From NCBI GenBank assembly GCA_012521875.1, contig JAAYLN010000141.1, positions 1 through 33,137 on the forward strand: 33,137 nt of DNA. Direction: 5' to 3'. The translations under genes were made by a program, and so were the position numbers. The DNA comes from Lentisphaerota bacterium (lineage in GTDB: Bacteria; Verrucomicrobiota; Kiritimatiellia; RFP12; JAAYLN01). This document shows, piece after piece, positions 5,227-33,105 of the stretch. The stretch's first letter is position 1. Every line of letters begins with the position of its first letter. The notes beneath the pieces are model-generated. The model searched no databases and had not been told where the DNA came from. It saw only the letters and a program-made list of their open reading frames with translations.

Positions 5227-8200
5227 CTACCGCACAATCAGCAGCGTTCTGGAGAGGGTGGTGTTCTCGTAGGCGCCCATGTCGCACACATTGAAGAGGA
5301 TGCGCGGGTTGCCTTCGAGGTCGAGGTCGTCCCTGGTCCAGAGATAGTTCACACCCGTGTTGACGCAGGGCGAGCCCGTGGTGAGGCGGTAGTTGCCGCA
5401 TGCGCGATCCTTGAAGCGCGGATTGGCGCCGGTGTTGCCGTCGGCGGCCGTTGCGCCGCTCCAGCAGGAGTGACCCACCGTGCCGCCCGTCTTGTGCAAG
5501 TCGTTGGTGCCGTTGAACCAAGCGATCGAGTTGGTCATGTTGCCGTTCGCCAGATAGATGCCGGAGCCGTCAACCCCGTGGCTGTTGTCGACCACCGTAA
5601 CATTCTCCAGACGGGAGATGGAATCGGTCAAAAAGAGTCCGTGGCCGTTCTGGGGTTTTGTTTCAAAGGACCGGTTGCCGGTCACCAGACTGTTGCGCAG
5701 CGCACCGGCGCCGCTGGACCAGGGCGCTGCTGTGCGCTTGCAGAAGTAGGCACCCCCGCCGTAGCCATAGGCGCGGTTGTTCACAATCTCGCAGGCCGTG
5801 GCACTTCCGCCCGCCAGATAAATGCCGCCGCCATGGCGTCCCGTAACACCGGAATAGCCGGAGGTGTTGCCCTCGATCCGGCACCGCTCGACGCTGCCAT
5901 CCGACATCCACACGCCGCCGCCGTAGAGATTGGCCTGGTTGTTGGTGACGATGCAGTCGCGCATCACGCCCCCGCGCACCCAGACGCCACCGCCCAAGCC
6001 GACGCCTGTGTTGCCGTTGCGCGTGGCCTGGTTGTTGAAGATCTTGCAATGCGTCAGCAGCCCCCCCGCCCTAAGTTCCACGGCACCGCTGTTGTCGGCA
6101 CCGTTGTTGTTGCGGATGACGCAGTTCGACACCACGCCGGCGACCAGTCGCAGCGCTCCGGGGCCGGCGTTGTCGCTGTCGCCGGCATAATTTCCGTAGA
6201 CATCCCCGTCCCTCAGGGTCAGTCCGGAGATGAAGGCACCACTGTGGTTGACCCGCAGCACGCGCCGGAAGCGCCATCCTGGGCAGGCCGCACGCAGCAC
6301 GGTCTCCGCCGGCCCGTTGACACTGCGCAGGGCGATGGGCTTCTCCACCTGCACCCAGAAGATGGGGATGTAGTAGTTGCCGTTGGTGATCCAGACCGAC
6401 GCCGGCACCGCGCCATCCCATGCCCAGACGGCGTCCACGGCATCCTGGAGGTTCGTGGCGGCCTTGGCCCACGTGTCGAAGGGCGGCGTATGGCTGCCGT
6501 CGAGGCTGACGTAGCTCGTGGCGCTGCCGGCGCGGATCACATTGACCCCGACAAAGGTTGCCGCCTGGCCGCTGGCGTTGCTGACGGTAAGCGCCACACT
6601 GTGGAACCCCGGCCCGAAGGTGTGCGAGACCGCTTGCTTGTCGGAGCCGGCCGCGTCAATTATACCGTCGTTGTCGAAATCCCAGCCAAACCATGTCAGA
6701 TCGGCATCAGCGCCATCGGCAAACGCCGCGAGGGTGGCCGTGACGGGGGCGAGCCCCTCCTCCGGTGTGGCCGTGAAGCCGCATGTCAGCGGGCCCGTCC
6801 CGGGAATCCTCTCGAATGCCCCCATGTCGGGCGCGCCGTTCTGCGGACGCGCGGTGCCGTTGAGATCGTCCGTGACGTCGTCCAGGACGGCGGCGGCATC
6901 CAGCGCCGGCGAGCCCGGCAGCAGGCGGTAGTCCCCCGCGGCCGCATCGGCAAAGAGCGGATCCGCAGCCACGTTGCCGGTGCCCTCGACGGCCGGCCAG
7001 GTACAACTGTAGTCAAAGGTGCCATCGGTCTTGACGATGTTGCGCGCCTCGATCTGATAGACTCTCTCCCCGTTGCCATACACGATGGCGCCGCTGACCG
7101 CACCGCCCGACTGGTAGAGTCCATTGGCACCCTCGTAAACGACGCGGTTGCCGGTCACGGTGACATTCCGCAGGTTGCCCGAGCTTAGATAGACGCCCGC
7201 GCCGTCGTAGAAGGAACGGTTGCCGGCGAACTGACAGTTGCGCACCGTGGCCGACGAGCCCGCGAGGTAGAGCCCGCCGCCATTTTTCGCCCAATGGTTG
7301 GACACCACCGTGCAGCGCTCCAGCGTGCCGCCGCTCATGTACACCCCGGCCCCCTGCATGTAGCCTGAGGTGTTGTCACGGAAGCGGTTGGCGGCTATCA
7401 GGCTGTCACGGACGATACCACCGGTGATGCGCAGGCCGGCTCCCAGATCGCATGCGCTATTGTTGGTGATGACGCAGGATTGGACTGTGCCGGCCTGTAG
7501 CCGGATACCACCCGCCTTGCCTTCACTGGGGTTATTGCTGGTGCGGTGCGCCGTATTGTTGGCAACTACGCAGTGCGTCAGCAAGCCGCCGCGCATGTCC
7601 ACGCCGCCGCTGTTGTCGAGCCCCTTGCTTCCGAGAATCCAGCAGTTGGTGACGGTGCCTGCGTCAATCCGCAGCGCGCACGCATTCACGGCGTCCGGCT
7701 GCGCATACGCGCTATCGTGGGTGTAGGCACTGACCATGCCCAGACCGGAAATAAGGGCACCCGCATGATTGACGCGCATCACGCGGCGCTGTGTCGGGTT
7801 GAAGGCTGCACATGCGGCTTTCAGCGATGTCACGGCGGGGCCGTTGAGGCTGGTGATCGTCAGCGGCTGCGTCACCTCGACCCAGAAGGAGGTGACGTTA
7901 TGGACGCCGTTGGAGAGGATGATCGTACCCGCCCCCCCGGCCGCCGCGACGGCGGCCTCGATCGTCTGCTTGGCCGTGGCCCAGCTCAGGCCATCGGCGC
8001 TGTCGTCGCCGTCGGTGCGCACGTGGTAGGTCTGCCCGAAGACGGCGGCGGCCGTGACCGGTTCCGCGGTCGGGAAGGAGAGCGTAGCCTGGTAGCGCTG
8101 CGCCTCGGGCACGTTGCCCGTCCAGTAGGCAAAGGCGGCGCCGGCATCGGGTATCGCCGTCACGGTGACGCCGGAGCCTGCGGTGTACCAGTTCCCCGTG

Positions 8201-10710
8201 GTGGAGACCGTGCCGCCGGAACCCGCCGTGACCGCGACGAAGTACTGGTTCGTGAAGTACCACTCCAGCCGCTCAATGTCCGTGTGGGTGTAGGTCAGCC
8301 CGTTGGAGGAGCCGGAGTCCAGCAGCGTCTCCGCGAGCGTCCCGCGGTCGATGCCGTAGCGCCGCCATCCCGTGCAGAGATACCGGACGCCCTCGCCGGC
8401 GGCGACCCAGGGCGAGACCGAGCAGGTGTACTCCCCGTCCTCAACCCGGTCCTCGTGGAGTCCGTAGGCAGGATCGGCGATCCCGTAGTCGGCGGGGCGG
8501 CCGACGACCTGCAGCGAGGTGCTTAAAGTGCCGACTGCGCTGTAGTCGTTGAACGCGGGGTCGGCCACCGTGTCGTGCTCTGCGCGCACCCAGTCGGCGG
8601 AGGCGACGGCGTCGAGCAGCCGGAACTCGTCGAAGCAGCCCTTGTAGGTGGTCACGCTGTTATCGGGATTGCTACCGAAGGCGAGTCCCAGGCCGTTGTC
8701 CGTCGCGGGGACGATGCCGGCGTTACTGACTTTCCTGACGCCGTTGACGTAGGCGTCGAGTTTATCGTTCTTGTAAACGAAGGAGACGTGATACCAGTCG
8801 CCCAGGCTGATATCCGGCGTGGGGACTTTGACCTGAGGATTTTGTGCGGCACCGCGAACTCCCATTTCGACTTTCGATCCGTTTGTGAGCTCGATTTCGA
8901 AGCCGTCCGAGTCTTGCCACCCTTTTTTACGGGAGAAGAGACGCTCCCAGCCATTGGCCGCGTTCTTGCGGTGGCGGCACCAGCCGGAGAGGGTGAAGGT
9001 GCTGCCGATGGCCAGCGCGTTGTAGTTGGCGGTTAGAAAGCCGGTCTTGTCCACCTGAGTAGTGGCGTCGTCGCTGTTCAGGACGCAGTTGCCGACGATG
9101 CCGTCGACGCGGCCGGTGGAGACGGTGGGCTTGTAGGCCGTGCTGTCGAGCCCGCTGGCAGTCGAGTCGGGCGTGACGCCGGCGGGGGAGATGGCGGCGA
9201 AGTGCCAGACCCCGCGGAAGTTGGCCGGTGCCCAGGTCGAGCCGTCGGTGGTGAATCCGGGCGCGCTGGCATCCGGGGCGCTGAAGTAGAGGCGGAGCGT
9301 GGTCGTGGCGGTCAGTTCCGGCACGCAGACCCAGACGAACGAGGTGCCGTTGGTGTTCCAGGTGTCGATCTCGTGCTTCAGGACTCTCCCGTCGGCGCCG
9401 AGGAAGAGGAGGTCGGCGCCGTCGGGCCGGCACATCGTGTAGTCAAAGCCCGTGATCCCCTCCGAGAGGCGCACGAGCACGGGGAAGTTGGTCAGCGGCA
9501 CGCTGCCGGCATAGCCGCGGGTGGTGATGTCTATGAAGCGGCTGCCCCGCGCGTAGAAGGCCGCGGAGGCGGCGACCGGCTCCGCGGCCGGGAAGGAGAG
9601 CGTAGCCTGGTAGCGCTGCGCCTCGGGCACGTTGCCCGTCCAGGAGGCGAAAGTGAAACCGGCATCGGGCGTGGCCGTGACGGTGACATTGGAACCGGCG
9701 GCATACCAGCCGCCGGTGGTGGAGACCGTGCCGCCCGCCCCGGCCGCGAAGGTGACCTTGTTGGAGGCGGTCGCGAACAGCCACTCCAGCACGTCAAAGC
9801 CAGCCTGATGGGTGTACGAGACGGAATTGCCGGTGCCGGAGTCGCAGGCGACACCGTTGGTGGAGAGCCTCCAGCCCGTGCAGTTGGCAATCATCGTGTC
9901 GCTGACAATGCTGGAGGCGACCGAGGCGACAACGTTGGATCCGACGGCCACGTCGTCATACATGCTGCAGGCGGGCGACGCCGACACGATATCGTAGTCC
10001 GAGACAATGTAGAGACGGTTTGTAGCGGGATTCTCACCCCTGTAGGCGCCTCGGGGCGGCGCGTAGAAGGTCTCGGACACCCGATCCCACAGTCCCGTCA
10101 CAGAGCCGACGGCGCAAGGCACGAAGTCGCGGACGAGATCGTCTTCCTCGTAAACCTTCACGGAGTAAATCCGATGCGTGGAAATATTAGAGATGTTGTC
10201 AAGGTTTGGCCCGACTCGTGACGCACCGATGGCAATGGGATAGGGGGTGGTGATGCTCATGCCGGGCGAAAGTGCCGTTTCGGGAGCCGTGGCGCCGTTG
10301 TCGATCTTGAGCGCCCGGCCCGTGGCGGTCTTGTAGTTGAAGTCGATCAGGTGCCTTTCGGTATCAACAGGGATGCCGGGAGCGACTTGGTTCCACCCCA
10401 TGGAACCGCTACAGTAGGTGTATGCCCAGTTGCCGTTGCCGTTCTGGCACATGCTGAAACCCCAGTTCGCCGATGTAAGGTGCGTTCCAAAGAAACGCTC
10501 CTGATTGCCCGTTGTAAGCTTCTGCATGTCGAGAACAAAGCGCGTCGTCGGCGTGGCGTGATACTGCGTGTCGATCCAGGGGCTGTTCGCTGCCGAGACA
10601 ATCGATCCGAGCTCGACGCGCGCGGTTCCGGCGGCCCGCAGAGGCGTGTCCGCGGCCAAACCGATGAACACCGCCAGCGCGGCGGTTGCGAAGCTGGTAT
10701 AATTCCTCAT
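5227..10710 (-). CDS. Giant exported beta-helix / LamG / PKD surface protein
   Basis: Predicted 1827-aa secreted or surface protein. I start it at the ATG at 10710 (the adjacent ATG at 10713 is the alternative) because GGAG lies 7 bases before it and a signal peptide follows (MRNYTSFATAALAVFIGLAA, ending near LRAAG). Approximate order: N-terminal jelly-roll-like region (30-220); InlB-like bacterial repeat (317-392); DUF2341-like segment (392-480); LamG/concanavalin-like domain (497-713, with GDWYHVSFVYKNDKLDAYVNG); second InlB-like repeat (823-890); right-handed beta-helix with Pmp-like turns (897-1293); PKD domain (1303-1393, WDFDNDGIIDAAGS); second beta-helix (1400-1813) with CDMGAYE near the end. 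No LPXTG, PEP-CTERM or type IX tail is evident. Such proteins usually bind or cleave polysaccharides or act in adhesion. No catalytic residues can be assigned. Confidence 0.85.
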   Translation of the reverse strand: MRNYTSFATAALAVFIGLAADTPLRAAGTARVELGSIVSAANSPWIDTQYHATPTTRFVLDMQKLTTGNQERFFGTHLTSANWGFSMCQNGNGNWAYTYCSGSMGWNQVAPGIPVDTERHLIDFNYKTATGRALKIDNGATAPETALSPGMSITTPYPIAIGASRVGPNLDNISNISTHRIYSVKVYEEDDLVRDFVPCAVGSVTGLWDRVSETFYAPPRGAYRGENPATNRLYIVSDYDIVSASPACSMYDDVAVGSNVVASVASSIVSDTMIANCTGWRLSTNGVACDSGTGNSVSYTHQAGFDVLEWLFATASNKVTFAAGAGGTVSTTGGWYAAGSNVTVTATPDAGFTFASWTGNVPEAQRYQATLSFPAAEPVAASAAFYARGSRFIDITTRGYAGSVPLTNFPVLVRLSEGITGFDYTMCRPDGADLLFLGADGRVLKHEIDTWNTNGTSFVWVCVPELTATTTLRLYFSAPDASAPGFTTDGSTWAPANFRGVWHFAAISPAGVTPDSTASGLDSTAYKPTVSTGRVDGIVGNCVLNSDDATTQVDKTGFLTANYNALAIGSTFTLSGWCRHRKNAANGWERLFSRKKGWQDSDGFEIELTNGSKVEMGVRGAAQNPQVKVPTPDISLGDWYHVSFVYKNDKLDAYVNGVRKVSNAGIVPATDNGLGLAFGSNPDNSVTTYKGCFDEFRLLDAVASADWVRAEHDTVADPAFNDYSAVGTLSTSLQVVGRPADYGIADPAYGLHEDRVEDGEYTCSVSPWVAAGEGVRYLCTGWRRYGIDRGTLAETLLDSGSSNGLTYTHTDIERLEWYFTNQYFVAVTAGSGGTVSTTGNWYTAGSGVTVTAIPDAGAAFAYWTGNVPEAQRYQATLSFPTAEPVTAAAVFGQTYHVRTDGDDSADGLSWATAKQTIEAAVAAAGGAGTIILSNGVHNVTSFWVEVTQPLTITSLNGPAVTSLKAACAAFNPTQRRVMRVNHAGALISGLGMVSAYTHDSAYAQPDAVNACALRIDAGTVTNCWILGSKGLDNSGGVDMRGGLLTHCVVANNTAHRTSNNPSEGKAGGIRLQAGTVQSCVITNNSACDLGAGLRITGGIVRDSLIAANRFRDNTSGYMQGAGVYMSGGTLERCTVVSNHWAKNGGGLYLAGSSATVRNCQFAGNRSFYDGAGVYLSSGNLRNVTVTGNRVVYEGANGLYQSGGAVSGAIVYGNGERVYQIEARNIVKTDGTFDYSCTWPAVEGTGNVAADPLFADAAAGDYRLLPGSPALDAAAVLDDVTDDLNGTARPQNGAPDMGAFERIPGTGPLTCGFTATPEEGLAPVTATLAAFADGADADLTWFGWDFDNDGIIDAAGSDKQAVSHTFGPGFHSVALTVSNASGQAATFVGVNVIRAGSATSYVSLDGSHTPPFDTWAKAATNLQDAVDAVWAWDGAVPASVWITNGNYYIPIFWVQVEKPIALRSVNGPAETVLRAACPGWRFRRVLRVNHSGAFISGLTLRDGDVYGNYAGDSDNAGPGALRLVAGVVSNCVIRNNNGADNSGAVELRAGGLLTHCKIFNNQATRNGNTGVGLGGGVWVRGGVMRDCIVTNNQANLYGGGVWMSDGSVERCRIEGNTSGYSGVTGRHGGGIYLAGGSATACEIVNNRAYGYGGGAYFCKRTAAPWSSGAGALRNSLVTGNRSFETKPQNGHGLFLTDSISRLENVTVVDNSHGVDGSGIYLANGNMTNSIAWFNGTNDLHKTGGTVGHSCWSGATAADGNTGANPRFKDRACGNYRLTTGSPCVNTGVNYLWTRDDLDLEGNPRILFNVCDMGAYENTTLSRTLLIVR
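8057..8220 (-). repeat. Intragenic duplicated InlB-like module, copy 2
   Basis: Near-identical at DNA level to about 9572-9730 in the same gene. Both carry 'agcgtagcctggtagcgctg' and the following 'cgcctcgggcacgttgcccg' with only scattered differences around them. The encoded motif is WTGNVPEAQRYQATLSFP in both. The copies indicate recent internal duplication or gene conversion. Confidence 0.75.
9572..9730 (-). repeat. Intragenic duplicated InlB-like module, copy 1
   Basis: Partner of the copy at 8057-8220. The duplicated unit probably also includes the preceding linker ('CTGWR ... YTH ... LEW'), which recurs as protein similarity in front of both InlB-like repeats. Confidence 0.75.
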
Positions 10711-10759
10711 CATGCGTCTCCGGTTGCGGCGTTTGAATACACGCCTGCTATTGTCCGCC

Positions 10760-10788
10760 ATTATAGCCGGAACCAGTGTGGCTGTCAT
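10760..10788 (-). promoter_or_regulatory. Sigma70 promoter of the giant surface-protein gene
   Basis: On the minus strand, ATGACA (10783-10788, 5 of 6) and a perfect TATAAT (10760-10765) are separated by exactly 17 bases. The predicted start of transcription is near 10753, giving a leader of about 43 bases before the ATG at 10710. This is the best promoter in the window. Confidence 0.7.
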
Positions 10789-10826
10789 TCCAGAACTGTA
10801 ATCGTGTCATTCCAGAACTGCAATCG
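10783..10826 (-). promoter_or_regulatory. Two 22-bp tandem direct repeats overlapping the -35 (candidate operator)
   Basis: Two abutting 22-bp copies (10783-10804 and 10805-10826) differ at one base; the shared core is TGTCATTCCAGAACTG. The promoter-proximal copy contains the -35 hexamer. A 22-bp period is about two helical turns, as expected for a dimeric regulator binding one face of the DNA. The role is inferred. Confidence 0.5.
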
Positions 10827-10837
10827 GGGTAGTGTGG

Positions 10838-10853
10838 GGCAGGCATTCCTGCC
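10838..10853. terminator. Stem-loop GGCAGG-catt-CCTGCC downstream of the oxidoreductase
   Basis: A short GC-rich hairpin between the end of the minus-strand oxidoreductase gene and the promoter of the next minus-strand gene. It lacks a T-run. It may be a weak terminator or part of a dispersed repeat word. Confidence 0.25.
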
Positions 10854-10911
10854 TGCCCACGCCGTCCCGTGCAGAGCTGACTTCGCTACGCTCGTCGATG
10901 CGGAGCGCATA

Positions 10912-10970
10912 GAGGCTCTTGCAAAAACCTTGCATGCGCACGCGGCCACGAGGGGGGGGCAAGATCCTGC
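10912..10970. mobile_element. Partial copy of the palindromic element
   Basis: The left arm (GAGGCTCTTGCAAAAACCTT) and part of the interior (GCCACGAGG, CAAGAT) match the elements at 5009-5106 and 21738-21836. The central palindromes are missing. It abuts the 3' end of the oxidoreductase gene. Confidence 0.5.
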
Positions 10971-10974
10971 GTAG

Positions 10975-12036
10975 TCAATCCGCGAGCGCTTCGGCGAGCG
11001 GCGTCACGCGCTCGAGGCGCCCGGAGGCGGCGGAGCGGAAGAGCGCGTCGGTTATGAGGGCTGTCTCGGTGGCGCTCTCGAACGTGCAGAGGGGCGGACG
11101 CCCTTCCCGCACGGCGGCGATGAAATCGGCGATCATCGGCAGATGCCAGTTGGGCGGTTCGGCGCCTGATGCGCCGGTGGTCGAATCCGCGACGGAACGC
11201 GCGATGTTGGTCACGACCTCGATGGGCAGGTCGAAATGCGGCGGCGCTCCGGGCCAGACGATCCTGCCGTCCGTGCCGAAGAACTCGTAGGAGTGCCGGA
11301 TGCGGGCATGCGAGGTGAGGTTGAGGCGGATTGCGAACTGCCGCCCGCCGAGGAAGCGCAGCAGGAGGTTGTCGAGGTCATCAACGTCGCGCCCCGGCTC
11401 CTGGTCGGGATTGAACGCGGAGAGCATAGCGAAGACGGCCTCGGGCATGCCGAAGAGGTGCTGGGCGATGTTGATGAGGTAGAAGCCGAGCGTCAGGATG
11501 GGCGAGAGACCGTCACTAAGCCGCAGCGTCTGACCGGATGGGTTGTAGAAGGGCTCGTAATCGACCGCCGCGCCACCCACAAGGCGGCCGATGCGCCCCT
11601 CCTCAATGAGCCGCCGGGTAGTGCGGAACTGTGATGTGAAGAGGCGGTAGTTCGAGCAGCCGGCCACAAGACCCGACGCACGCCGGGCGCGGATCATCGC
11701 GAGGCATTCGCCGGTGTCGCGTCCGAGGGGCTTTTCGCAGAAGACGTGCTTGCCGGCGGCCAGGGCGCGGCAGACCATCGTGGCGTGCAACCGGGGCTGG
11801 GTGGCGACATAGACGGCATCGGCACCCGATTCGGCCAGCGCGCGGTCGTAGTCGTCGAAGACCGCCGGATGGCCGGTACGCGTGGCAAGGGCGGCAGCCT
11901 TGGGGCTGCCCGCACGGCCGCAGATGGCAACCAGCCGCGAATCCGGAATCGCAAGCAGCGCCGGCGCGACGCGCCGCGTGGCGATGTCGCCCGGCCCTAC
12001 AAGGAGCCAGGTTAGCGGTTTGGAGGTGGAAGGCAT
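10975..12036 (-). CDS. Gfo/Idh/MocA family oxidoreductase
   Basis: NAD(P)-dependent sugar or cyclitol oxidoreductase, 353 aa, which is the standard length. The N-terminal Rossmann domain begins at once (WLLVGPGDIATRRVAPAL, with GPGDIA as the dinucleotide loop). It is followed by DAVYVATQPRLHATMVCRALAAGKHVFCEKPLG, whose EKP motif carries the family's conserved lysine. The C-terminal alpha/beta domain (from about residue 130) binds substrate. The ATG at 12036 is supported by AAGGA 8 bases upstream. There is no signal peptide, so it is probably cytoplasmic. Its long leader is built from repeat words also found in front of the WbsX-like gene. It is likely used in sugar modification or catabolism; the substrate is unknown. 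Confidence 0.9.
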   Translation of the reverse strand: MPSTSKPLTWLLVGPGDIATRRVAPALLAIPDSRLVAICGRAGSPKAAALATRTGHPAVFDDYDRALAESGADAVYVATQPRLHATMVCRALAAGKHVFCEKPLGRDTGECLAMIRARRASGLVAGCSNYRLFTSQFRTTRRLIEEGRIGRLVGGAAVDYEPFYNPSGQTLRLSDGLSPILTLGFYLINIAQHLFGMPEAVFAMLSAFNPDQEPGRDVDDLDNLLLRFLGGRQFAIRLNLTSHARIRHSYEFFGTDGRIVWPGAPPHFDLPIEVVTNIARSVADSTTGASGAEPPNWHLPMIADFIAAVREGRPPLCTFESATETALITDALFRSAASGRLERVTPLAEALAD

Positions 12037-12120
12037 GATGGATGTCCTTAAAAGGCAGACACAAGAGTGATAGTGCAGTCATTTTCCCATGCCCGGGCCA
12101 TAAGGGAAAGGCGAAATGTG

Positions 12121-12420
12121 GTAATCGGCTAGCGACAGGGATGCGCAAGAGGAGTGGACTGAATGCGGATGGAGCGTCCTCGTCCTCGTCCTCGATAGCG
12201 ATTGAACCGCCAAGACGCCAAGAGCGCCAAGAGGAACCACGAAAGACAGGAAGAGACGTGAAAAAGGGAGTAAGTGTGCGAGTGTGGGAAGTAAGTGCAA
12301 GAGTAGCGCACAGCACCCACTTAAACCCACTCTTAAACTCACTCTTAATCGGCACGCTTAATCCACCCGCTTACTCTTTAGCTTTCGACAAAGTTTCCGA
12401 CAAAGCTCGCGACAAAGTGG
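12121..12420 (-). repeat. Composite repeat leader block (oxidoreductase side)
   Basis: Read on the minus strand the order is: CGACAAAG-type repeats (12384-12420); 'ttaagagtgggtttaag' words (12311-12378); TTTCACGTCT; GCGTCTTGGCGGTTC words (12204-12243); GAGGACG hexamers (12175-12194); CCATCCGCATTC; and AGCCGATTAC (12121-12130). Most of these occur in the same order in front of the WbsX-like gene at 17586-17854. No gene is seen here. Confidence 0.6.
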
Positions 12421-12470
12421 GGGTCGCCACCACCCGCTCTCCATGCTCTCCCCGCGTCCCCTCTGTCAAC

Positions 12471-12526
12471 AGCCGATTACGAAATGTGCGAAACCGCTTG
12501 CACCGCAAGGGCGGCTGGGGTAGGCT
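12471..12526 (+). promoter_or_regulatory. AGCCGATTAC box plus candidate promoter of the 1358-aa protein
   Basis: AGCCGATTAC (12471-12480) lies 17 bases before TTGCAC (12498-12503). A 17-base spacer and TAGGCT (12521-12526, 3 of 6) follow. The same AGCCGATTAC word lies 20 bases before the candidate -35 of the WbsX-like gene and upstream of the oxidoreductase. Predicted start near 12533, with a leader of about 90 bases. Confidence 0.4.
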
Positions 12527-12621
12527 TGCATCTATTGAGCTGTAATCGCTCCGTGACGGGTGCGTGCATGCCACATGGCCCCGCTTCGGACCGGAGTCGC
12601 AACCGCCGGCAAGGATACCTT

Positions 12622-15600
12622 ATGACCATCAGACACCTCACCCGCCCGCTCATCACCGCCATGTCATTAGCTCTCGCAACGTCGCCGGCCTTTGCCGCCA
12701 CCGTCAGGACCGTCTATCAGGAGGAGTTCGACGGCTACGGCGATGCGGTCGAGGTCTTCAACCAGGGCGCCACCATCGCCGAGTGGCCCGCCTCGCTGAA
12801 GTCGCTCTGGCTCTCGGATGTGCGCGGCGACGCGCGCAAGACGCCTTTTCCCATCACCACGCCGCCGGCCACGGAGCGCTACACCTTTAGCTTCGCCTTC
12901 AAGTTCGGCCGTAGCGAGGCCCCGCGCGCCTTTCAACTGAAGCTCTACTTCAATGATTCCGGCCAATCCCGCGAAGTCATCCTCACCATTGATGAGGCGG
13001 GCTCGCGTTTCGGCCAGGCTGCCGTTGCCAAGCCCGCCGCAGGCCGGAAGGGCTTTCTCAACGATGGCAACTGGAACCAGGCGCTGATCGCGGTGCAGGG
13101 CCGTCAGGCGCGCCTCTTCCTCTGCCGCGGCGGTCTCTTTGCCGAGGAGTGTTCCGCCACCCTCCCCGCGGGGCGGCTGACCGGCTACAACTTCGCCTCC
13201 GGCACGCCCGTCGGCTTCGACTCCATCCGCATCGTCGAGAACGCCACGCACGAAGATCCCTATGCCTTCCGCTCCTACGTCGCGAAAATCGCGGCGGCGA
13301 GCGCGCGCGCCCGCGCCGCCGCCCTGCCCGATGCCCCCGCCGCCTACACCAACACCACCCCGCTCGGCAGCCTCGTCCTGGCCTACCGCTCCTCCGCCGA
13401 CACCCGCCGCAAGGACGACGTGATCAACCTCGCACTCCTGGACGGCACTTCGCATCCCATCCGTCTCCGCGCGCGGGACGGTCAGGCCCCCTTCGGCTAC
13501 CGCGCCTACGATGCGGCGGAGGGAGTTTTCAAGCCCGTCCCCGGCAACTGCGCCATCTCCAACCTGCTGCTCATGGTGAGCTCGCCCAAACTGGGCCGCA
13601 ACGTCTCCGTCTATACCCGACCGTGCCCGTACTACCGCTACAATCCGCCCGAACTGACCGAGAGTCTCGCCCACCTCGAAGCCTTCCCGGCCGCCGACAA
13701 CCATACGTTCGAGATCGCCCTGCACGCTACAGGCGTAGCCACCAACTACGAGGTCTGGGTCGATGCCAGGTTTGCCGGCCACCTGCCGCTCGCCGCGCCG
13801 CTGGCGGGCTTCACCGCCGCACTCAGCGGCCCCGCATCGAGCGTGCGTCTCGTCCGCGCCACGCCCGCCGGCCAGAGCGCCGGCCACGGCCTCTACCTGC
13901 CGCTGGACGTCAACGGCCTCGGCCGGCCCTTCGGTACACTCGCCGGCAAGGTCGAGTACCAGAAGGGTACCGTGCCCTTCCTGCCCGCCGATCCCGCCAA
14001 CGCCCTGAACCTGGCCCTCTGCCGCGAGAATCTCGGCTCCTTCGCCCTCGAATGCAACGGCTACCTCCAGCGCAGTGCCTTCGACGGCATGCCCTCCAGC
14101 ATGCACTTCGCCGTGCCCACCCGCCAGTATATCCGCGCCCACGCCCTCTGCGCGGTCGCACCCGACGCCCCCGCCGACTTCTTGCCCGTCGTGACCGCAC
14201 GCCTCACGCAGTTCCGCAGCGGCGACGGACGCTCCGAGGCGGTCTGCGACACCACCGTGCGCCTCCCCGCGCCCGGCTCGTCCGAGCCCCTCCCCGCCAA
14301 CGTGCGCGCCGTCGGCAAGGTCGGCAAAGTGCCGCTCTACCAAGTCGCCTTCGACTTCGACGTCGGCGCCATCCAGGACGTCGTCATGATGCAGGATCTG
14401 CCCAACCTCGACTTCGAGTTCCTGGGGCCGACCTACCGCAAGGACACCTACTACCTGAGCCGCAAGCGCTCGCCCGACTACGACACCTTCAGCTCGGTGC
14501 AGGTGCTGGCGGCCACGCTCGAACGCTCGCCCGTGGACTTCGTCGTGCTACCCGCGCGCGTCGGCAGCACCTACTATCCCGACGAGCAGGCGGGCTTTAC
14601 CGTCCGCGCCACCCCCGTGCGTCCCGGCGACAAGGCCACCTACACGGTCACCTGTACCGTCACCGACCGCGCCGGCCAGCAGCTCGATACCTTCACGGAA
14701 CGCTTTTCCGGCGCCATGGAACACACCTTCACCTTCCGCCAGAAGGCCTACGGCCCCTACAACACCATCTTCACCCTCGCGGACGCCGCCGGCAAGCTGC
14801 TCGTCACCCATCGCGCACGCTTCGCGCTGCTCCCGCCCGACACCCGCAAGGCCGGCTACGACGCCCCCTACTACAGTTGGAACTTCAACGGCGCCCACGG
14901 CACACCGCGCGACATCGCCGTCTGGGGCGACATGCTTAAGCGCATGGGCGTCCACCGCACCAATCTCGGCGGTCTCGCCGAGACCAACGAGCTCGCGCGC
15001 CGCTACCAGTTGACGATGGCCCAGTTCCCGCAACTGCGCGCCAAGACCGCCCCCGACGCCACCCCGGAGCAGCAGCGGCAGGCGATGATCGCGCAGGCAC
15101 GCGAACACACCGCCCGCTATCCCCACTGCAAGGCCGCGCTCATCTTCCACGAGAGCGGCGGTGGCGGCCCCTTCCCCGCCGAACTTCTGGGCGGCACAAC
15201 CACCATCACGCCCGAGCAGAAGCAGGAGGACGAGAAACGCACCGCCATCGCCCGCGAAGTGGCCGAGGCCTGGCGCGCCGCCGACCCCTCCGTCCGCATC
15301 GTGATCGGCAACACCGGCGAGTCGGTGGTGCCGATCGCCAAGATGTTCCGCGAAAAGCTGCCGCACAACCTGATCGACGCCATGGGCGAGGAGAGCGTCG
15401 GCATGACCATGCCGCCGGAACTCTCCACTGCCTACCCCGCCTTCAACCTCCGGCGCCTTGCCGAGATTTACGGCTACACCAATGTCATGCCGGAAGCCTG
15501 CTTCGAGTGGAAGTCGCGTGTGCGCCGCCACTTCCGCCCCGGTCTCGACGCCGCCTTCATCGCCCGCGACGCCCTGATCGCCCACGCCTGGCGCTTCCGC

Positions 15601-19605: not shown

Positions 19606-20145
19606 TTCGCCTTCGTCAAAGCTCACGACAAAGCGACAACGTGGCGTCTCTGGCACTCGACGACAATCGACGACAATCGACGACAGCGGCCAACCGGAGG
19701 ATAAAACCTATTGTTAAAACTATGTCCCGCCCCTTCAGGGCTAGTCATTTTTTGCCACATTTCCCAGGGCGTTGCCCTGGGCTGGTATATCGCGCCCCTT
19801 CAGGGCTTTCATCAACTTTGTCGCGAGCTTTGCCGGTAACTTTGTTGGTAACTTTGTCGAAATCGCAAGGAACCGCGAAAGCACGAAAGAGAAGGTGCAA
19901 TTTGCCGCGAATGCACGCGAAACTGGATTAAGCGGGTGGAGTAAGCGTGCCGATTAAGAGTGGGTTTAAGTGTGGGGTTTAAGTGTGCACTTCGCACTTT
20001 CTTGATCTCCTACACCTTCGTCCCCTGCGTCCCATTCGTCCCATTCGTCCCATCATTGCCGCAAGCTAAAGATTAAGCGGGTGGAGTAAGCGTGCCGATT
20101 AAGAGTGAGATTAAGTGCGGAGTTTAAGTGGGTGCTTCGCACCTG
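19606..20145. repeat. Dense intergenic repeat region
   Basis: No gene is supported between 19513 and 20217. Present are: CGACAAAG-type repeats (19606-19640, and inverted at 19811-19864); 'cgacgacaat' decamers (19651-19689); a palindromic word CCCAGGGCGTTGCCCTGGG with GCCCCTTCAGGGC on both sides (about 19732-19812); two 'ttaagcgggtggagtaagcg' blocks (19926-20000 and 20069-20145); and 'cgtcccattc' decamers (20018-20052). All are short, degenerate and mostly seen elsewhere in the window. Confidence 0.6.
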
Positions 20146-22000: not shown

Positions 22001-22052
22001 TTTAGAACTTTAGAACTTCCGAACTTTAGAACTTTAGAACTTTAGAACTTCC
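22001..22052. repeat. GAACTTTA tandem repeat
   Basis: Five to six units of 'tttagaact' or 'ttccgaact' form a short A/T-rich tandem array about 30 bases beyond the 3' end of the minus-strand CsgG-like gene. Its origin and role are unknown. Confidence 0.6.
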
Positions 22053-25460: not shown

Positions 25461-26027
25461 ATGCGGAGTTTGAACGCTTTGGGCCGAACCGACAAGCAAT
25501 TGATTGCCGACTACCGCTCCTCCGGGGATCCGCGGATCCTGGAGGAGATCGTGGAACGGCATATGGGCAACGTGCGGGCCGCGGTATATCCGCTGGTCTT
25601 GAACGACGCGGATGCCGACGACGTGGCGCAGGAGGCCATGCTGCGCATTCTCGCCGGGCTGGGCTCCTTCCGGGGCTCCGCGGCCTTCTCGACCTGGTGC
25701 TACCGCGTGGCGGTCAACACGGCGCTGAGCTTCCTGCGCCGGCAGAAGCGCCGGCGTGCCCGCTTTACGGATGCCGACTTGTCGGACGAGGCGCTGGAGC
25801 ATGAGGATCACGCGCCGCCGCGGCAGGCCGAGGTCTCGGAGCTAAACCAGCGGATCACCGCCGCCATGGAGCTGCTGCCGCCGGAACAGCGCGCCGCCCT
25901 GGCGCTGGTCGCGATCCGGGGATTGAGCGAGAGGCAGGCCGCCGTCGCCTGCCAGTGCTCCTTCGCCACCCTGCGCTGGCGTCTCTTCCGCGCCCGGCAG
26001 CGGTTGAAACTGGAACTAGGTATGTAG
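25461..26027 (+). CDS. ECF-type RNA polymerase sigma factor
   Basis: 188 aa. Sigma-70 region 2 is clear (DADADDVAQEAMLRILAGLGSF, AAFSTWCYRVAVNTALSFLRRQKRRR), as is region 4 (LLPPEQRAALALVAIRGLSERQAAVACQCSFATLRWRLFRARQRLK). A short acidic linker joins them and there is no region 1 or 3, which is the group 4 (ECF) layout. The ATG at 25461 sits directly on AAAGG, so the TTG at 25470, 9 bases after that motif, may be the true start (MNALGRTDKQL). It is the first gene of an operon that continues with a membrane protein positioned like an anti-sigma factor and with CsgG-like proteins. It probably directs transcription of this operon and perhaps of the divergent gene. Confidence 0.9.
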   Translation: MRSLNALGRTDKQLIADYRSSGDPRILEEIVERHMGNVRAAVYPLVLNDADADDVAQEAMLRILAGLGSFRGSAAFSTWCYRVAVNTALSFLRRQKRRRARFTDADLSDEALEHEDHAPPRQAEVSELNQRITAAMELLPPEQRAALALVAIRGLSERQAAVACQCSFATLRWRLFRARQRLKLELGM

Positions 26028-26040
26028 GAGTGCCCAGGGT

Positions 26041-26127
26041 ATGCCGCAGGATGATGATTTCGACAGGGCGTCCCGCCTGGGCGGGCGCATGGAACACAGG
26101 ACAGATTTGACAACCACGCAGGCCTAG
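26041..26127 (+). CDS. Possible 28-aa ORF between sigma and anti-sigma genes
   Basis: MPQDDDFDRASRLGGRMEHR... runs from an ATG at 26041 to a TAG ending one base before the next gene's ATG. GGAG lies about 10 bases upstream. It exactly fills the gap and is hydrophilic. It may be a coupling peptide or chance; no homologue is recognised. Confidence 0.3.
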   Translation: MPQDDDFDRASRLGGRMEHRTDLTTTQA

Positions 26128-26128
26128 C

Positions 26129-26914
26129 ATGAAACAACCACTCGACAAGCTACTACGCGACTGGGCCGCCAGCCACGAGCCCGACGCGGCCGCCCGGCGG
26201 CAACTGGAGGCACGCGTCGTGCGGGCCGCCCGCCGGAAGCTCCACAACGGCGGCCCCGCCCCGGTGCCGGCCCCGCGGCACCGTCCCTCCCCGCGCCAGC
26301 TCCACCACCTGCTCTGGTTCGCCGCCGGCATGGCGGCGACCATCCTGATCGCGGTGGTCTGGCATTTTGCCGCCGCTCACGCGCCCGCCCCCGCGCCGGC
26401 CGCGTCGCCGCTGGCCGAGGAGCGCGGCCTGTTTGCCGGCCGCCACCGCTCGATGGTCCGCATCTTCCGCGAGACCGAGCAGCTCTTCGGCTCCAACCTG
26501 CAGTGGGTGGCGCAGAGCGGCGACGAGGCCGAGCTGGGCGTCTCGCAAACCTCCGCGGATGGCAGGCCGCTGGTCGTGCGGCTCGTCATCGTGGCCCGCC
26601 CCCTAGGGAACGGCGCCTGGCGCCGCCTCTGGGAGACGGAGGTCGTCGCCCGCGCCAACGCCACGCTGGATCTGACGCCCGCCGGCCGGCCGGACGACCG
26701 CCTGATGCTGTGGATGCACTGCCTGGAGGGTGGGGCGGCCCTCGTCGAGAGCCGCCTTATGCTGCACGGCCCCGTCACCATCGAGGCCGAGACCAGCGAG
26801 GTGCTGAAGTTCGGCGCCACGCGCAAGGTCACCCGCGTCCTGCACGAGGGTGTCGAGTATCTCTTGTTGCAGACCGTCGCGCCGGTGGATGGAGGTGAGT
26901 CATGCCGTTCCTGA
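26129..26914 (+). CDS. One-pass membrane protein, probable anti-sigma factor
   Basis: 261 aa. The N-terminal 60 residues are charged and cytoplasmic (MKQPLDKLLRDWAASHEPDAAARR). One membrane helix follows (about 62-84: LWFAAGMAATILIAVVWHFAAA), then a periplasmic Ala/Pro linker and a beta-rich domain of about 170 residues. This topology, and its place after an ECF sigma gene, suit an anti-sigma factor that holds the sigma at the membrane. A zinc-binding HXXXCXXC motif (ZAS type) is not present, so it would be a non-ZAS type. There is only a weak ribosome binding site (GCAGGCC). It overlaps the next gene by 13 bases. The function is inferred from position and topology, not from recognised family motifs. 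Confidence 0.65.
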   Translation: MKQPLDKLLRDWAASHEPDAAARRQLEARVVRAARRKLHNGGPAPVPAPRHRPSPRQLHHLLWFAAGMAATILIAVVWHFAAAHAPAPAPAASPLAEERGLFAGRHRSMVRIFRETEQLFGSNLQWVAQSGDEAELGVSQTSADGRPLVVRLVIVARPLGNGAWRRLWETEVVARANATLDLTPAGRPDDRLMLWMHCLEGGAALVESRLMLHGPVTIEAETSEVLKFGATRKVTRVLHEGVEYLLLQTVAPVDGGESCRS

Positions 26915-27870
26915 CGCCATCCTCCGCCGTGCGCCTGCGCCGCGCCGCCGCGCTGGCCGTGCTGCTTGCCTCTGGCGGCGCCCTGCCCGCCGCCGAGGCG
27001 GTTGTGAACGCCTTTGCCGGAAGCGAGACGCTGGTGATATGCCGCTCTTCCTTCGTCCCGCGGGCGGGCGAGGAGGTCTGGTTCCGCGTGGTCCGCGATC
27101 ACCGTACCGTGGCCGCCGGCACGGTACGTGCCGGTGGGGATGGCCGCATCGCGCTGCCCGTGGCCCTGCCCGGGATCAGGCCCGGCGTGGCCCTGCCGCT
27201 CGAGGTCACGCTGCGGGCCGGTTCGGAGCAGGGGAGGGTGCTGCCTGGCGGCGGTACGCTCTGGGCTCTCGCCGAACAGCCGCTGCCGCCGGGGCGCAAC
27301 CCCGCCGCACCGCGCGCGATCCGGCTCTATGACCCCGTCGGACGCACGGAGGCCGCCTTCCGCTCCATTAGCCTACCCTTCGAAAGCGTCGTCCGCCTCG
27401 CGGCGCTGGCGGCCATGACCAACACCACCCTGGTCGTGGGCGAGGATCTGGCGCTGGAGTCCGAGCGCGGCCTCTGGGAGGCGCTGATGGCCTCCGTCGC
27501 GCAGGGCAACCGCATACTGCTGCTGGCGCCCGCCGACGGTGTGCTGCGCCCGCCTGCCGACTGGCAACTGCTCATGGCCGGGCCTGCCGACAGGCTGCTG
27601 CGCGCCCCGCCCCGCGGCGGCGCGGCCTACAAGCTCGATCTCCGGGAATGGCCGCCGGCGGGTGCCGTGCGGATCCGTTTCCGGCTCGCCGCGATCCGTG
27701 ACCAGGTCGTCTTCGAGGCCGGCTCCGCCGCCGGCTGCGAGGCCGTCCGCTGGACCGATGCCGCCTCGGGCGGCTCCTTCACGGCCTGTGGCCTGGGAAT
27801 CATCGCTAGTTGGGAAACCGCACCCGCGGCCCGGTGGCTGCTGGTGGAACTGTTGAACGAGGAGAAGTAA
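26902..27870 (+). CDS. Exported protein of unknown function in the sigma operon
   Basis: 322 aa from the ATG at 26902, which has a strong GGAGGTG ribosome binding site 5 bases before it and overlaps the previous gene by 13 bases. A signal peptide is visible (RLRRAAALAVLLASGGALPAAEA). The first mature ~100 residues are beta-rich (VWFRVVRDHRTVAAGTVRAG). A mixed segment around 150-230 (RSISLPFESVVRLAALAAMT) and a beta-rich end follow. I do not recognise a family. Its location between the probable anti-sigma and the CsgG-like genes suggests a periplasmic partner of the system, perhaps in sensing or complex assembly. Confidence 0.7.
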   Translation: MPFLTPSSAVRLRRAAALAVLLASGGALPAAEAVVNAFAGSETLVICRSSFVPRAGEEVWFRVVRDHRTVAAGTVRAGGDGRIALPVALPGIRPGVALPLEVTLRAGSEQGRVLPGGGTLWALAEQPLPPGRNPAAPRAIRLYDPVGRTEAAFRSISLPFESVVRLAALAAMTNTTLVVGEDLALESERGLWEALMASVAQGNRILLLAPADGVLRPPADWQLLMAGPADRLLRAPPRGGAAYKLDLREWPPAGAVRIRFRLAAIRDQVVFEAGSAAGCEAVRWTDAASGGSFTACGLGIIASWETAPAARWLLVELLNEEK

Positions 27871-27872
27871 GC

Positions 27873-28907
27873 ATGAACACAAACCGCAAGCACTGGATCA
27901 TCCTGACCGCCTGTGCGGTCATCGGCGCCGCACTGCACGCGGAGCCCGATACGCCCGCGACAGCGGACGCACCCAAGGCCGACGCAGCACCCGCCGCAGC
28001 ACCCGCCGCGGCGGAAGCCGCCGGGGAGGCCGCGCCGCAGTTGGCGGCCGAGCCGGTTCCCGCCGCCATTCTGGCCTTCGCCGAGCGCGGGCCGGCCGTC
28101 AAGGGCACCGCCGACAAGGTCGCCGACCTGCTCTTTGCCGAGCTCGCCGCCCACGACGGGCTCTGGCTGGTCGACCGCCAGGATCTGCAGCAGACCCTGT
28201 CCGAGCAGGAGCTTTCCGCCTCGGGCATGGTCAATCCGGCCCAGGCCGTCAGGATCGGCTCGCTGACCGGCGCCAAGGTGCTGATCACCGGCTCCGTCTT
28301 CGAGATCGACAAGGATCTGCACATCGTGGCCAAGATCATCGGCACCGAGACCACCCGCGTCCTCGGGGCCTCAGTCAAGGGGCTGGCCCGCGACGATCTG
28401 GGGCCGCTGGTGACGCAACTGGCCGCCAAGGTGGCCGAGACCGTCACGCGGAAGTCCGGCCTGCTCATCGCGCCTGAAGTCCGGCTGGAGGACCGCATCG
28501 CGGCGCTCAACCGGGCGCTCGGCGACAAGCGCCGGCCCGTGGTCGCGGTGCGCATCGCCGAGCGGCATGTCGGCCAGGCCACCATCGATCCCGCCGCCGA
28601 GACCGAGGTCGCGCTCTTCTGCAAGGAGACCGGCTTCACGGTGCTGGACCACGCGGATGCGGACAAGGCGGATATCCGGATCGAGGGCGAGGGATTCAGC
28701 GAGTTCGGACTGCGCCGCGGCAACCTGGTCAGCGTCAAGGCGCGTGTCGAGGTCAAGGCGGTTGACCGCAAGAGCGGCGAGGTCGTGGCCATTGACCGCG
28801 AGACCGCCGTCGAGGTTGACCTGACCGAGCAGATCGCCGGCAAGAAGGCGCTGCAGGCCGCCGCCGCCCGTATCGCCGAGCGCCTGCTGCCGAAGCTGGT
28901 GAAGTGA
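27873..28907 (+). CDS. Exported CsgG-like protein
   Basis: 344 aa from the ATG at 27873 (MNTNRKHWIILTACAVIGAA), with GGAG 8 bases upstream and only 2 bases after the previous stop; the longer track frame is not needed. A signal peptide and an Ala/Pro-rich linker (to about residue 62) precede a CsgG-like domain (IPAAILAF-type first strand, then LADLLFAELA-like VADLLFAELAAHDGLWLVDRQDLQQTLSEQELSASG). It also contains LTGAKVLITGSVFEIDKDLHIVAKIIGTETTRV, typical of the family. A second alpha/beta half follows (about 205-344: PVVAVRIAERHVG, ETGFTVLDHADADKADIRI). No lipobox cysteine is seen, unlike curli CsgG, and no csgA/B/E/F genes are near. It is probably periplasmic or outer-membrane associated. 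The function is unknown. Confidence 0.8.
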   Translation: MNTNRKHWIILTACAVIGAALHAEPDTPATADAPKADAAPAAAPAAAEAAGEAAPQLAAEPVPAAILAFAERGPAVKGTADKVADLLFAELAAHDGLWLVDRQDLQQTLSEQELSASGMVNPAQAVRIGSLTGAKVLITGSVFEIDKDLHIVAKIIGTETTRVLGASVKGLARDDLGPLVTQLAAKVAETVTRKSGLLIAPEVRLEDRIAALNRALGDKRRPVVAVRIAERHVGQATIDPAAETEVALFCKETGFTVLDHADADKADIRIEGEGFSEFGLRRGNLVSVKARVEVKAVDRKSGEVVAIDRETAVEVDLTEQIAGKKALQAAAARIAERLLPKLVK

Positions 28908-28920
28908 TGGTGCGAAGGTG

Positions 28921-31900
28921 ATGACCGAACCACGAATCGCGTCATTCCGCACGCTGGCCGACCTGCTGACGGTGCAACTGGCGCAGACGCCCGGCGTCGA
29001 GACCGTCGAGCGCGCCGAACTGGACCGCGTTTTGCGCGAGCAGGCGCTCACCGCCGCCGGCCTGGCCGACGGCGCGCAGGGGCGCGTGGCCGTGGGACGC
29101 CTGCTGCGGGCCGATGGCTTTCTCTTCCTCGCGCGCACCGCCTCGCTGCGGCAGTACGCGTCGCGCCTGGTCGAGGCGCGCCACGGCTGCCAGGTCATGC
29201 AGATGCTCTACGCCACCAACGAGGCGCCGGCGGTGATCGCGGAACGCATCGCCGGTGCCGTGTCGGCCAAGCTGCCGACCCTGCGGCTGGCGGATGAGCA
29301 GCGCATCCTGCTCAACGTCATCCGCCTCGGCAACGCCACGCTCGATCCCCGGGCCGGCTGGATCGAGACCGACGGCGTCACGATGCTCTCGGGCTGTCTG
29401 GCGGCGCACCCCGCCGTCCTGGTTGTCGAGCGGCGCGAGATGGGCACGCTGCTGCAGGAGAGCCAGTTGGCCGATGCCGCCGCGCCCGCGTTCCGCGCCG
29501 CCGACTTCCTGATCGATGGCGATGTCTTTCTTACGCCTGGATCCACCAAGGCGCAAGATGATCTGCCCGTCACCCTCGTGCTGCGCCTGCGCGACATGCA
29601 ACTGGTGGAACAGGCGCGCGTGACGCGGTACGGTGGTCTCAACAATCTGGAGGACCTGCTGGTCGAGGCCGCCGCGGAGATGCTGAAAGAGGCAACGACT
29701 CGGCGGCCTGCCATCGAGGGCGCCGCGCAGCTCGAATCCCGCTTCATGAGGGATTTTGGACGCTTTGGCATGCATAAGCTTTGGGCGGTCGAGGCGGCAT
29801 ACGCCCTGGATGCCACCAATGCGGCTGCCCGCCGTGCGCTTGTCAATAGGCTGCTGCGCGTGGCGCAAACCGACAACACTCCCGCGCTTGCCACATGGGA
29901 ACAATGCCGCAGTGCTTATCTGGAGAGGGCGCATTATCTTGCGCAGGTTATCAGCCTCATCGAGCAGGATCCCGATTTGAGGAAGAAACGTTTGGTTGCC
30001 CAATTTCCCATGTCACACGTGCTTGTCGTCCGCGAGTACAAAACGACGCAGAGATATCTGGATTGGGCCAATGATCGCGAGTTGCAGGAGATCCTGCAAC
30101 CGGTACGGTCGCGGGCGCGCTTCGAGATGGCGCAGCACCTGCTGCCGCATGTCGGTTGGTACCCCTCCATGTGCCGGGAGCTCTACGCGATGTTCGAGAG
30201 CGTGGCGGAGTCGGCGACCTACTTGCAGACGCTGGCTGAGCGCCTGGCTGTAGATCCCCAGTTGAAGCCGCTCGAACGCCAGAAACGCGTCTCTGTGCTT
30301 CTGAGTTGCACAACGCTTCCGCCACGGCTCTACGACAACCTGTGTACCAACGCGGATCCTGTCGTCCGGTTTTTCGCGCATGTCAAGGCCGCCCGTGTCA
30401 GCGCCTCTGCCGAAAAGCGCGACCAACACTACACCGCCGTGTTGGAGCTGCTTCCCGATTTGCTGCGCTGCACGCAACTGGCCATCTTCTTCGCCGAGTG
30501 GCACTCGCGGAACGATGGACACCATCATTACAACTTTTTGCGCAATACGCTGCTTGCTATCCGCAACGCTGGCTTTGGTAAGCAGGTGAATGCCGCCCTG
30601 TTGGCCCAGTGCGAAATGTGGCTGGAAGCCGGCGATCTGGCCTCCCTGTGCGACACCTGGTCGGATCAGTATTTCGAATGGTTCGAGCAGGGCGTTGCCG
30701 ATTCACTGCTGGACCGGATAGGGATGCTTCGCACGGTGCCATCCACCCGTTTGCCGCGTTCACACCATGGAAAGAGGGCGCTGGAACGTATCGAGAAAAG
30801 CTGCATCGAGCTTGCCCGCCGCCGCAGTCCTGCGACTCAGGTCTCTCCCGGCGACAAGTTGGCGATGCTCGCGCCGAACGACCGTTACCTCAGGGAGCAC
30901 GGTATATCTCTGGATGGTCTCGACTTCGCGGTTACGCCGCAGCGCCTGTTGGTCGATGGCGATAAACTGTGGATTGCACTTGGCGGGCACGATCTAAACG
31001 ATTTTTCGCGGGACAATACCGACTACACCGGGTTGATACGGATGAACTTGAAAACCGGCGCCATCGACTACTCGCGCTTCGGTAAAATTGTAACCCCGCG
31101 TGGCCGCCCGTATGTATCGGACTGTCAACATGTGTACCATGCCTTTTCGCCTCTCTTCTTCTGGAAGGCAAATATCTGCCTTGCCAGGCGTGGACAGGGC
31201 GTATATCTGTTTCCCCGCGATGCACCTGCGGGCGCGGGCGACTTGTCCGACGTCCGACTGCTGGGCGCTGAGATCGGACTGTCGTCGCTCAACATAACGG
31301 ATGCCGCCGCGCTGGGCGACACGCTCTATATCGCGCTGCCCAACACCTTGCTTGCCTGGCGCAAGGACGCTGCCAAGGCGCGTGTCGTGGCGGTGACGGC
31401 CACGGAAACGGCGACCGGGCCACTGGCATCGGTCGGCTTGATTGATGGTCTGGTGGCTGATGCCGCGTCAGACCGGCTCTATCTTTTCACGAAGCGCTCA
31501 ATCTGGCGCTATACACCGGCTGACGATACATGGACAAAACTGGTCAGCGACGACCGCCGTGTCAGTACTTCGCGCTTGGCACATGGCATCATCACCAGCA
31601 CGCCTGGTCTGGTTCTGTTCACCAAAACACGGCGCAAGGGACGTGGTAGTGGTTCTTTGTTGAACGAGGCTTTAGTTGACATCACCGCTTGTTTCCGCCT
31701 GGCTGACGAGTCGATCGGAGACCCGCCTGTCGAACTCGCCACGCCCGAGAACTATCTGGCCCGCTACGATGTGGCGCGTTATCGCGGCGGTACGATCGTC
31801 ATCGGCGGCAACTATTTTATCAGCAGCCCTCCGGACTGGGAGTTGGCCTATCTGGTCGGGGCCACCAACACGATCAGCGGCGACATGCCCTGGCTCATTC

Positions 31901-33105
31901 CGCCAGCGGCACCCGCGACACCCCCTGCCGTGCCGTCGGGGAAGCCGGACACCCCACCCGTGTACACGCCGCTCGTCGCGGCCGCGCTGGCGGATGATAT
32001 TGACGGACTGAACCGTCTCCTGGATGCCGGAGCGTTAGTTGATGAATACGCCATGGATGGCATGACGCCGCTGGCGCATGCCGCGGCCAACGGGAAGGCG
32101 GCGGCTGTCCGGACGCTTATCGCCCGCGGTGCCGACATTGACGTGCCCAACGCCAAAGGCCGGACACCGCTCATGCTGGCGGCGGAACGCGGGCAGTTGC
32201 AATGCGTGGAACTGCTGCTGGTCGCCGGCGCCAACCCTCGTCACCGTGATAACCAGAGCCGCACTGCTTTGCAGGTTTCACCTGACCCGGGTATCTTGCG
32301 CGCCCTGATGGAGGCCGGTGCCAACCCGTTGGAGCCCAGCATTTCGGGACACTACCCAATGGATTTCTGTACATCAGGCTCAGAAAAGTATGAAATGCTG
32401 TGGCTGGGCACGATGCCGGGCGCGCTGGAGGTAAACCGGCGGCCCTTGCCGGTGCGCCCGCCATCGCACCTCGTCCATACCGCGCGCGTGGATCACGCTC
32501 TGGCGCGGCTGCGGCAGGGCGAGACACTTTCCGATGCGGAGCACAACGCCTGCCTCATAGCCTTTGCCCGCTATTATACCGAGGTCAGCAGCCGGCAGAA
32601 GTACATGTATGCCAGACGGTTCACCGAGCCCGAACGCACCGAACTTTTCCTGCAAGCCGTCAAGATGAGCTTCATTGATTGGCGGCGGCATGGCGGCTGG
32701 GCCTTCCGCTCCGATCTCCGCGCGGCGGTCTGTCCCGGGATCGAGCAGCGTCTGGCGGACGGGCCGTTCGACCCGTATCTAGCCTTCTGCACCCTCTTCC
32801 GCAAGGTGCAGCGTGGCGAGACGGAAGCCGCGCGCCGCGACTTCGAGCGCATCAGGGCGTCCGATCCTTTCCTTGCACGGCACGTGAGCCAGTGGTCCTA
32901 CCGCCACAACAAGCAGGCGGACTGGCTGATCGAGCCCTGCCTGGCCGGTGGCGACCGCGACAAGGTGCGTCAACTCGCCCAACTCGTCCGCCAGCAGGAA
33001 ACGCCCGAGATGCTGCGGATCGCCGCCGATCTCCACCGTCGCGGCGGCGACACCGCCGAAGCCGATGCGCTGCTGGCACGCGCGGAGAAGATGGAGGCAA
33101 AATGA
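28921..33105 (+). CDS. CsgG-like / helical / propeller / ankyrin protein without signal peptide
   Basis: 1394 aa from the ATG at 28921 (the track's GTG at 28918 is one codon earlier). Approximate order: CsgG-like domain lacking its first strand (10-120: LADLLTVQLAQTPGVETVERAELDRVLREQAL); second CsgG-like domain (120-270: VLVVERREMGTLLQESQLA); helical middle (270-650); propeller-like beta region (657-993); Pro-rich linker (AAPATPPAVPSG); about four ankyrin repeats (1014-1150: DGMTPLAHAAANGKAAAVRTLIARGADIDV); and a helical end. The domain order parallels the exported 1081-aa protein at 22083, so they are paralogues. Unlike that protein it has no signal peptide, although its neighbours do. It begins 13 bases after the CsgG-like gene, in the same operon, with a poor ribosome binding site (AAGG only 2 bases before). 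A scaffolding or sensing role is inferred. Confidence 0.72.
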   Translation: MTEPRIASFRTLADLLTVQLAQTPGVETVERAELDRVLREQALTAAGLADGAQGRVAVGRLLRADGFLFLARTASLRQYASRLVEARHGCQVMQMLYATNEAPAVIAERIAGAVSAKLPTLRLADEQRILLNVIRLGNATLDPRAGWIETDGVTMLSGCLAAHPAVLVVERREMGTLLQESQLADAAAPAFRAADFLIDGDVFLTPGSTKAQDDLPVTLVLRLRDMQLVEQARVTRYGGLNNLEDLLVEAAAEMLKEATTRRPAIEGAAQLESRFMRDFGRFGMHKLWAVEAAYALDATNAAARRALVNRLLRVAQTDNTPALATWEQCRSAYLERAHYLAQVISLIEQDPDLRKKRLVAQFPMSHVLVVREYKTTQRYLDWANDRELQEILQPVRSRARFEMAQHLLPHVGWYPSMCRELYAMFESVAESATYLQTLAERLAVDPQLKPLERQKRVSVLLSCTTLPPRLYDNLCTNADPVVRFFAHVKAARVSASAEKRDQHYTAVLELLPDLLRCTQLAIFFAEWHSRNDGHHHYNFLRNTLLAIRNAGFGKQVNAALLAQCEMWLEAGDLASLCDTWSDQYFEWFEQGVADSLLDRIGMLRTVPSTRLPRSHHGKRALERIEKSCIELARRRSPATQVSPGDKLAMLAPNDRYLREHGISLDGLDFAVTPQRLLVDGDKLWIALGGHDLNDFSRDNTDYTGLIRMNLKTGAIDYSRFGKIVTPRGRPYVSDCQHVYHAFSPLFFWKANICLARRGQGVYLFPRDAPAGAGDLSDVRLLGAEIGLSSLNITDAAALGDTLYIALPNTLLAWRKDAAKARVVAVTATETATGPLASVGLIDGLVADAASDRLYLFTKRSIWRYTPADDTWTKLVSDDRRVSTSRLAHGIITSTPGLVLFTKTRRKGRGSGSLLNEALVDITACFRLADESIGDPPVELATPENYLARYDVARYRGGTIVIGGNYFISSPPDWELAYLVGATNTISGDMPWLIPPAAPATPPAVPSGKPDTPPVYTPLVAAALADDIDGLNRLLDAGALVDEYAMDGMTPLAHAAANGKAAAVRTLIARGADIDVPNAKGRTPLMLAAERGQLQCVELLLVAGANPRHRDNQSRTALQVSPDPGILRALMEAGANPLEPSISGHYPMDFCTSGSEKYEMLWLGTMPGALEVNRRPLPVRPPSHLVHTARVDHALARLRQGETLSDAEHNACLIAFARYYTEVSSRQKYMYARRFTEPERTELFLQAVKMSFIDWRRHGGWAFRSDLRAAVCPGIEQRLADGPFDPYLAFCTLFRKVQRGETEAARRDFERIRASDPFLARHVSQWSYRHNKQADWLIEPCLAGGDRDKVRQLAQLVRQQETPEMLRIAADLHRRGGDTAEADALLARAEKMEAK

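Follow-up and report, generated by a model that had tools for sequence, protein, structure and literature searches.

Two abutting 22-bp repeats lie upstream of a gene for a giant surface-type protein, and the nearer of them contains the -35 hexamer of a putative promoter. The question raised by this locus is whether the repeats set the expression of that gene or are an accident of the surrounding DNA. The initial annotation took them for a regulatory site of the kind typical of surface genes and suggested phase variation through a change in copy number. We favour a plainer reading, a housekeeping-type promoter carrying a one-off, incidental duplication of 22 bp, to which we assign a probability of about 0.7 (0.72). 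The features on which the argument turns, within the window (the whole 33,137-nucleotide stretch of DNA analysed), are as follows.

5227..10713, minus strand: giant surface-type protein gene; likely start ATG 10713 (MMRNYTSF...), with a GGAGA ribosome site
10760..10765, minus strand: -10 hexamer TATAAT, 17-nt spacer to the -35 (coordinates re-checked)
10783..10788, minus strand: -35 hexamer ATGACA (promoter pattern search, coordinates re-checked)
10783..10804, minus strand: proximal, promoter-side 22-bp copy; in gene sense CGATTACAGTTCTGGAATGACA, its last six bases being the -35
10805..10826, minus strand: distal 22-bp copy; in gene sense CGATTGCAGTTCTGGAATGACA, one mismatch
10975..12036, minus strand: GFO/IDH/MocA oxidoreductase gene (Pfam), upstream of the surface-protein gene and in the same direction

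The gene itself is what it had been thought to be. Its product carries an InlB-type repeat (Flg_new_2), a LamG domain (Laminin_G_3) and a choice-of-anchor Q domain in Pfam, and its N-terminus has a signal-like stretch; it is therefore a large surface or secreted protein. Other proteins of the genome share portions of it, and such portions were also found in 44 of the 59 genomes searched, the window's own counted. Judged by its protein content, the lineage may be one of the PVC group. In other genomes the giant protein was matched only in parts, at roughly 30-43% identity, and the neighbouring oxidoreductase only at roughly 24-42%, so that no syntenic locus was found; nor did the relatives searched yield an orthologous promoter region for comparison. 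Farther along the window, 25461-33105 holds a gene for an ECF-type sigma factor; after it come two open reading frames that have no match in Pfam, then a protein with a CsgG domain and one of 1395 residues with ankyrin repeats and a weak CsgG match.

The promoter reads ATGACA, 17 nucleotides, TATAAT on the minus strand from 10788 to 10760, the latter position, at which the annotated range began, being the end of the -10 hexamer. It is the near-consensus promoter first described; it matches 11 of 12 consensus bases, and a pattern search of 9500-13000 returned it as the only promoter-like site. ATG 10713 lies 46 nt from the end of the -10, with the GGAGA ribosome site before it. An ORF finder places the start of the gene at ATG 10788, inside the -35 itself; translation likely starts at ATG 10713 and not at this upstream codon. 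Compared with the bacterial sigma-70 promoter (TTGACA-17-TATAAT), the likeness extends to 11 of 12 bases, a 17-bp spacer and a ribosome site followed by ATG, and we see no notable difference in this putative promoter: the hexamers are near consensus, the distance between them falls within 16-18 nt, and a gene start follows shortly downstream.

How much weight such a match deserves was judged against the rest of the genome. Two samples were used, one of 302 kb made up of contigs with related genes or elements, and one of 315 kb taken in steps of about ten contig numbers. The first held only three sites at 11/12, each followed by ribosome-site-like sequence and then a start codon. In the second sample together with the window, a ribosome site and start lay within 150 nt of all three sites with at least 11 matches and of 8 of the 18 with at least 10, as against 11% of random positions. 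As the window's site was counted in both samples, these amount to five distinct sites with at least 11 matches in about 0.6 Mb, with a gene start after each. Because sites of this quality are rare in the sampled DNA and all precede a gene start, ATGACA-17-TATAAT is probably the real promoter of the large surface-protein gene, and we infer that it is active.

The repeat is equally well defined. TGTCATTCCAGAACTGTAATCG is followed directly by TGTCATTCCAGAACTGCAATCG, the limits of the array are exactly 10783 and 10826, and Tandem Repeats Finder (TRF) reports that interval with a period of 22, 2.0 copies, 95% matches and a score of 81, so the two abutting copies with one mismatch, the proximal one including the -35, stand as first described. 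At 43% GC against 60-64% in the genome samples, the unit is AT-rich for this genome. Shuffles of the 302 kb gave no duplications of 15-60 bp at 95% identity or more, and the 22-bp repeat is therefore a true duplication. True duplications of this kind are common here: the 302 kb hold 10 tandem ones within the same size and identity limits and the further 315 kb hold another 10, about one per 31 kb, so that one is expected in a 33-kb window, and the repeat looks ordinary for its genome. The intergenic regions of the window also contain many short tandem arrays, for example at 12320-12373, 19926-20115 and 22001-22050, of TTAAGCGTG-like, CGACAAAGT-like and TTTAGAAC types, and arrays like these are present elsewhere among the genome's contigs.

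A regulatory site typical of surface genes, as the initial annotation had it, would be sought upstream of others. The 16-base core of the unit has only two matches in the 3.96-Mb genome at up to 2 mismatches, both of them at the repeat, and the proposed search upstream of other surface genes thus gave none beyond these. Against the unit, the upstream regions of paralogues C386, C241 and C216 score 12/22 and that of C435 11/22, which is background level. The exact 22-mer had no matches in GTDB genome contigs or in IMG/VR, collections from which records of the source or a very near genome may be left out, and among 145 genomes of the order there were just four single matches at 3 mismatches and none in tandem. 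A site shared by a regulon of surface genes was accordingly rejected at the length of the unit. The core is not scattered randomly through the genome either, the outcome that the annotation had said would count against it; it is unique, which is compatible with a gene-specific regulator, because a site serving one gene only is likewise expected just once per genome.

The paralogous surface genes have near-consensus promoters of their own, without the 22-bp unit. The other 11/12 sites of the 302-kb sample precede C241 and C216, and C386 has a 10-of-12 site about 260 bp before its paralogous stretch; no frame of more than 200 amino acids from an ATG lies close behind that site, which makes the link between promoter and gene less sure for C386. 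These observations support near-consensus sigma-70-type promoters as a feature of large surface-protein genes in this lineage. Other origins or roles for the repeat region were considered and set aside: for a phage or plasmid origin, the interval 10715-10974 had no match in either collection, and for a structured RNA, the sole Rfam match was at chance level and outside the repeat.

The DNA immediately upstream of the repeat consists of dispersed elements.

10829..10875, plus strand: element A, left half of a dispersed palindromic element, right half missing (nhmmer E 1.4e-11)
10876..10967, plus strand: element B, a portion of another dispersed element, abutting the truncated element A

This fused, truncated pair (10829-10967) begins 2 bp upstream of the repeat and marks an intergenic patch already altered by repeats. 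In its full form element A is about 70 bp long with inverted ends, CAGTGTGGGGCAGGCATTCCTGCCTGCCC ... CAGGAATGTCCGCGCCACACTGG; full copies are found in L053-L072 (e.g., L056:351-426), the genome has the element at 35 places or more, and of the 26 left halves in the first set of sampled contigs, 22 have the right half beside them. It resembles REP/REPIN elements in being a short dispersed palindromic unit with paired inverted halves, and a search of the 93%-complete genome for a cognate Y1 (RAYT) transposase of the REP/REPIN kind gave no PF01797 match. Element B has GAGGCTCTTGCAAAACC-type ends, and related copies occur in L004, L005 and L027.

The repeat and its -35 might themselves descend from a decayed copy of element A, in which case a mobile-type element would have supplied the -35. 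Positions 10773-10791 (CCAGTGTGGCTGTCATTCC) do align, with a 2-nt gap, to the reverse complement of the right end of A, at a score reached in only 16 of 2000 shuffles, but that score is matched by 130 of the 3287 other 61-base stretches compared within the window, and the element A model has no match to the repeat even at full sensitivity. The alignment is thus suggestive, neither the profile search nor the window control bears it out, and we regard this derivation as very improbable. The copies could instead be operators in tandem, both facing the same side of the helix, through which a gene-specific regulator activates or represses the promoter. The near-integral two-turn period, the position over and upstream of the -35 and the single mismatch in 22 bp fit this proposal, yet the genome has no further copy of the core and the paralogues lack the unit, no regulator gene adjoins the repeat in the set covered by the Pfam scan (that for the ECF sigma factor, at 25461, is some 15 kb off), and a recent duplication without selection would yield the same picture; we hold such operators to be unlikely. 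The PhoB operator, or Pho box, consists of direct repeats at 11-bp spacing in gene sense. TGTCAT-like direct repeats are likewise present at the -35 here, but the starts of TGTCAT, TGTAAT, TGTCAT and TGCAAT are 14, 8 and 14 bases apart and on the strand opposite to gene sense, and the locus was not assigned to this class.

Copy-number change is the remaining proposal, in which gain or loss of units would vary expression as phase variation or as a rheostat, through the DNA upstream of the -35. The gene is of the surface type, and there are precedents for repeats in the promoter regions of surface-protein genes. In the part of the literature consulted, nadA of Neisseria meningitidis is described as phase variable, with a promoter-region simple sequence repeat flanked by NadR operators (PMC2791445), and the sialic acid binding adhesin of Helicobacter pylori as controlled by a repetitive-element rheostat, a simple repeat varying by slipped-strand mispairing (PMC4081817). 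On these descriptions the present locus is like nadA in having a repeat in the upstream part of a surface-protein promoter, and like the adhesin in having one in the promoter region, an adhesin gene there and a surface-type gene here. It differs from both in that their repeats are simple sequence repeats, whereas the present locus, known from one genome, has just two copies of a long, 22-bp unit, with no known repressor site in place of the NadR operators. Moreover, the array and the -35 share their boundary at 10783, and the spacer falls beyond it. The core promoter is therefore identical with one, two or three copies, its -35, 17-bp spacer and -10 being unaltered by gain or loss of a unit, which excludes on/off phase variation of the spacer type and leaves the phase variation first suggested unsupported. 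Copy number might still have a weaker effect through the region upstream of the -35; overall we rate variation by copy number as highly unlikely. That the copies set the expression of the giant surface protein in some form, whether as a tandem operator specific to this gene or as a rheostat working by slow change of copy number, we consider unlikely.

We therefore return to the incidental duplication at a promoter of the housekeeping type. On this reading, the giant surface-protein gene would be driven by a minus-strand sigma-70 promoter of the constitutive type, and a 22-bp stretch including its -35 would have been duplicated once, through slippage or some comparable local process, where dispersed repeats had already rearranged the intergenic DNA. 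Such a duplication would leave the core promoter unchanged and at most extend an AT-richer stretch upstream of the -35; its specific function would most likely be little or none. We infer that it arose by slippage, and the simplest reading is that it is close to neutral. Some observations run counter to an incidental origin: a period of 22 bp approximates two turns of the helix, the copies are placed where activators or the alpha subunit of RNA polymerase would bind, and the unit is AT-rich.

As it stands, the finding means that one promoter has been annotated, and little otherwise. If the copies did prove to be operators or a rheostat, they would add a case of surface-protein regulation from beyond the well-studied pathogens, in a bacterial lineage that has received little attention.
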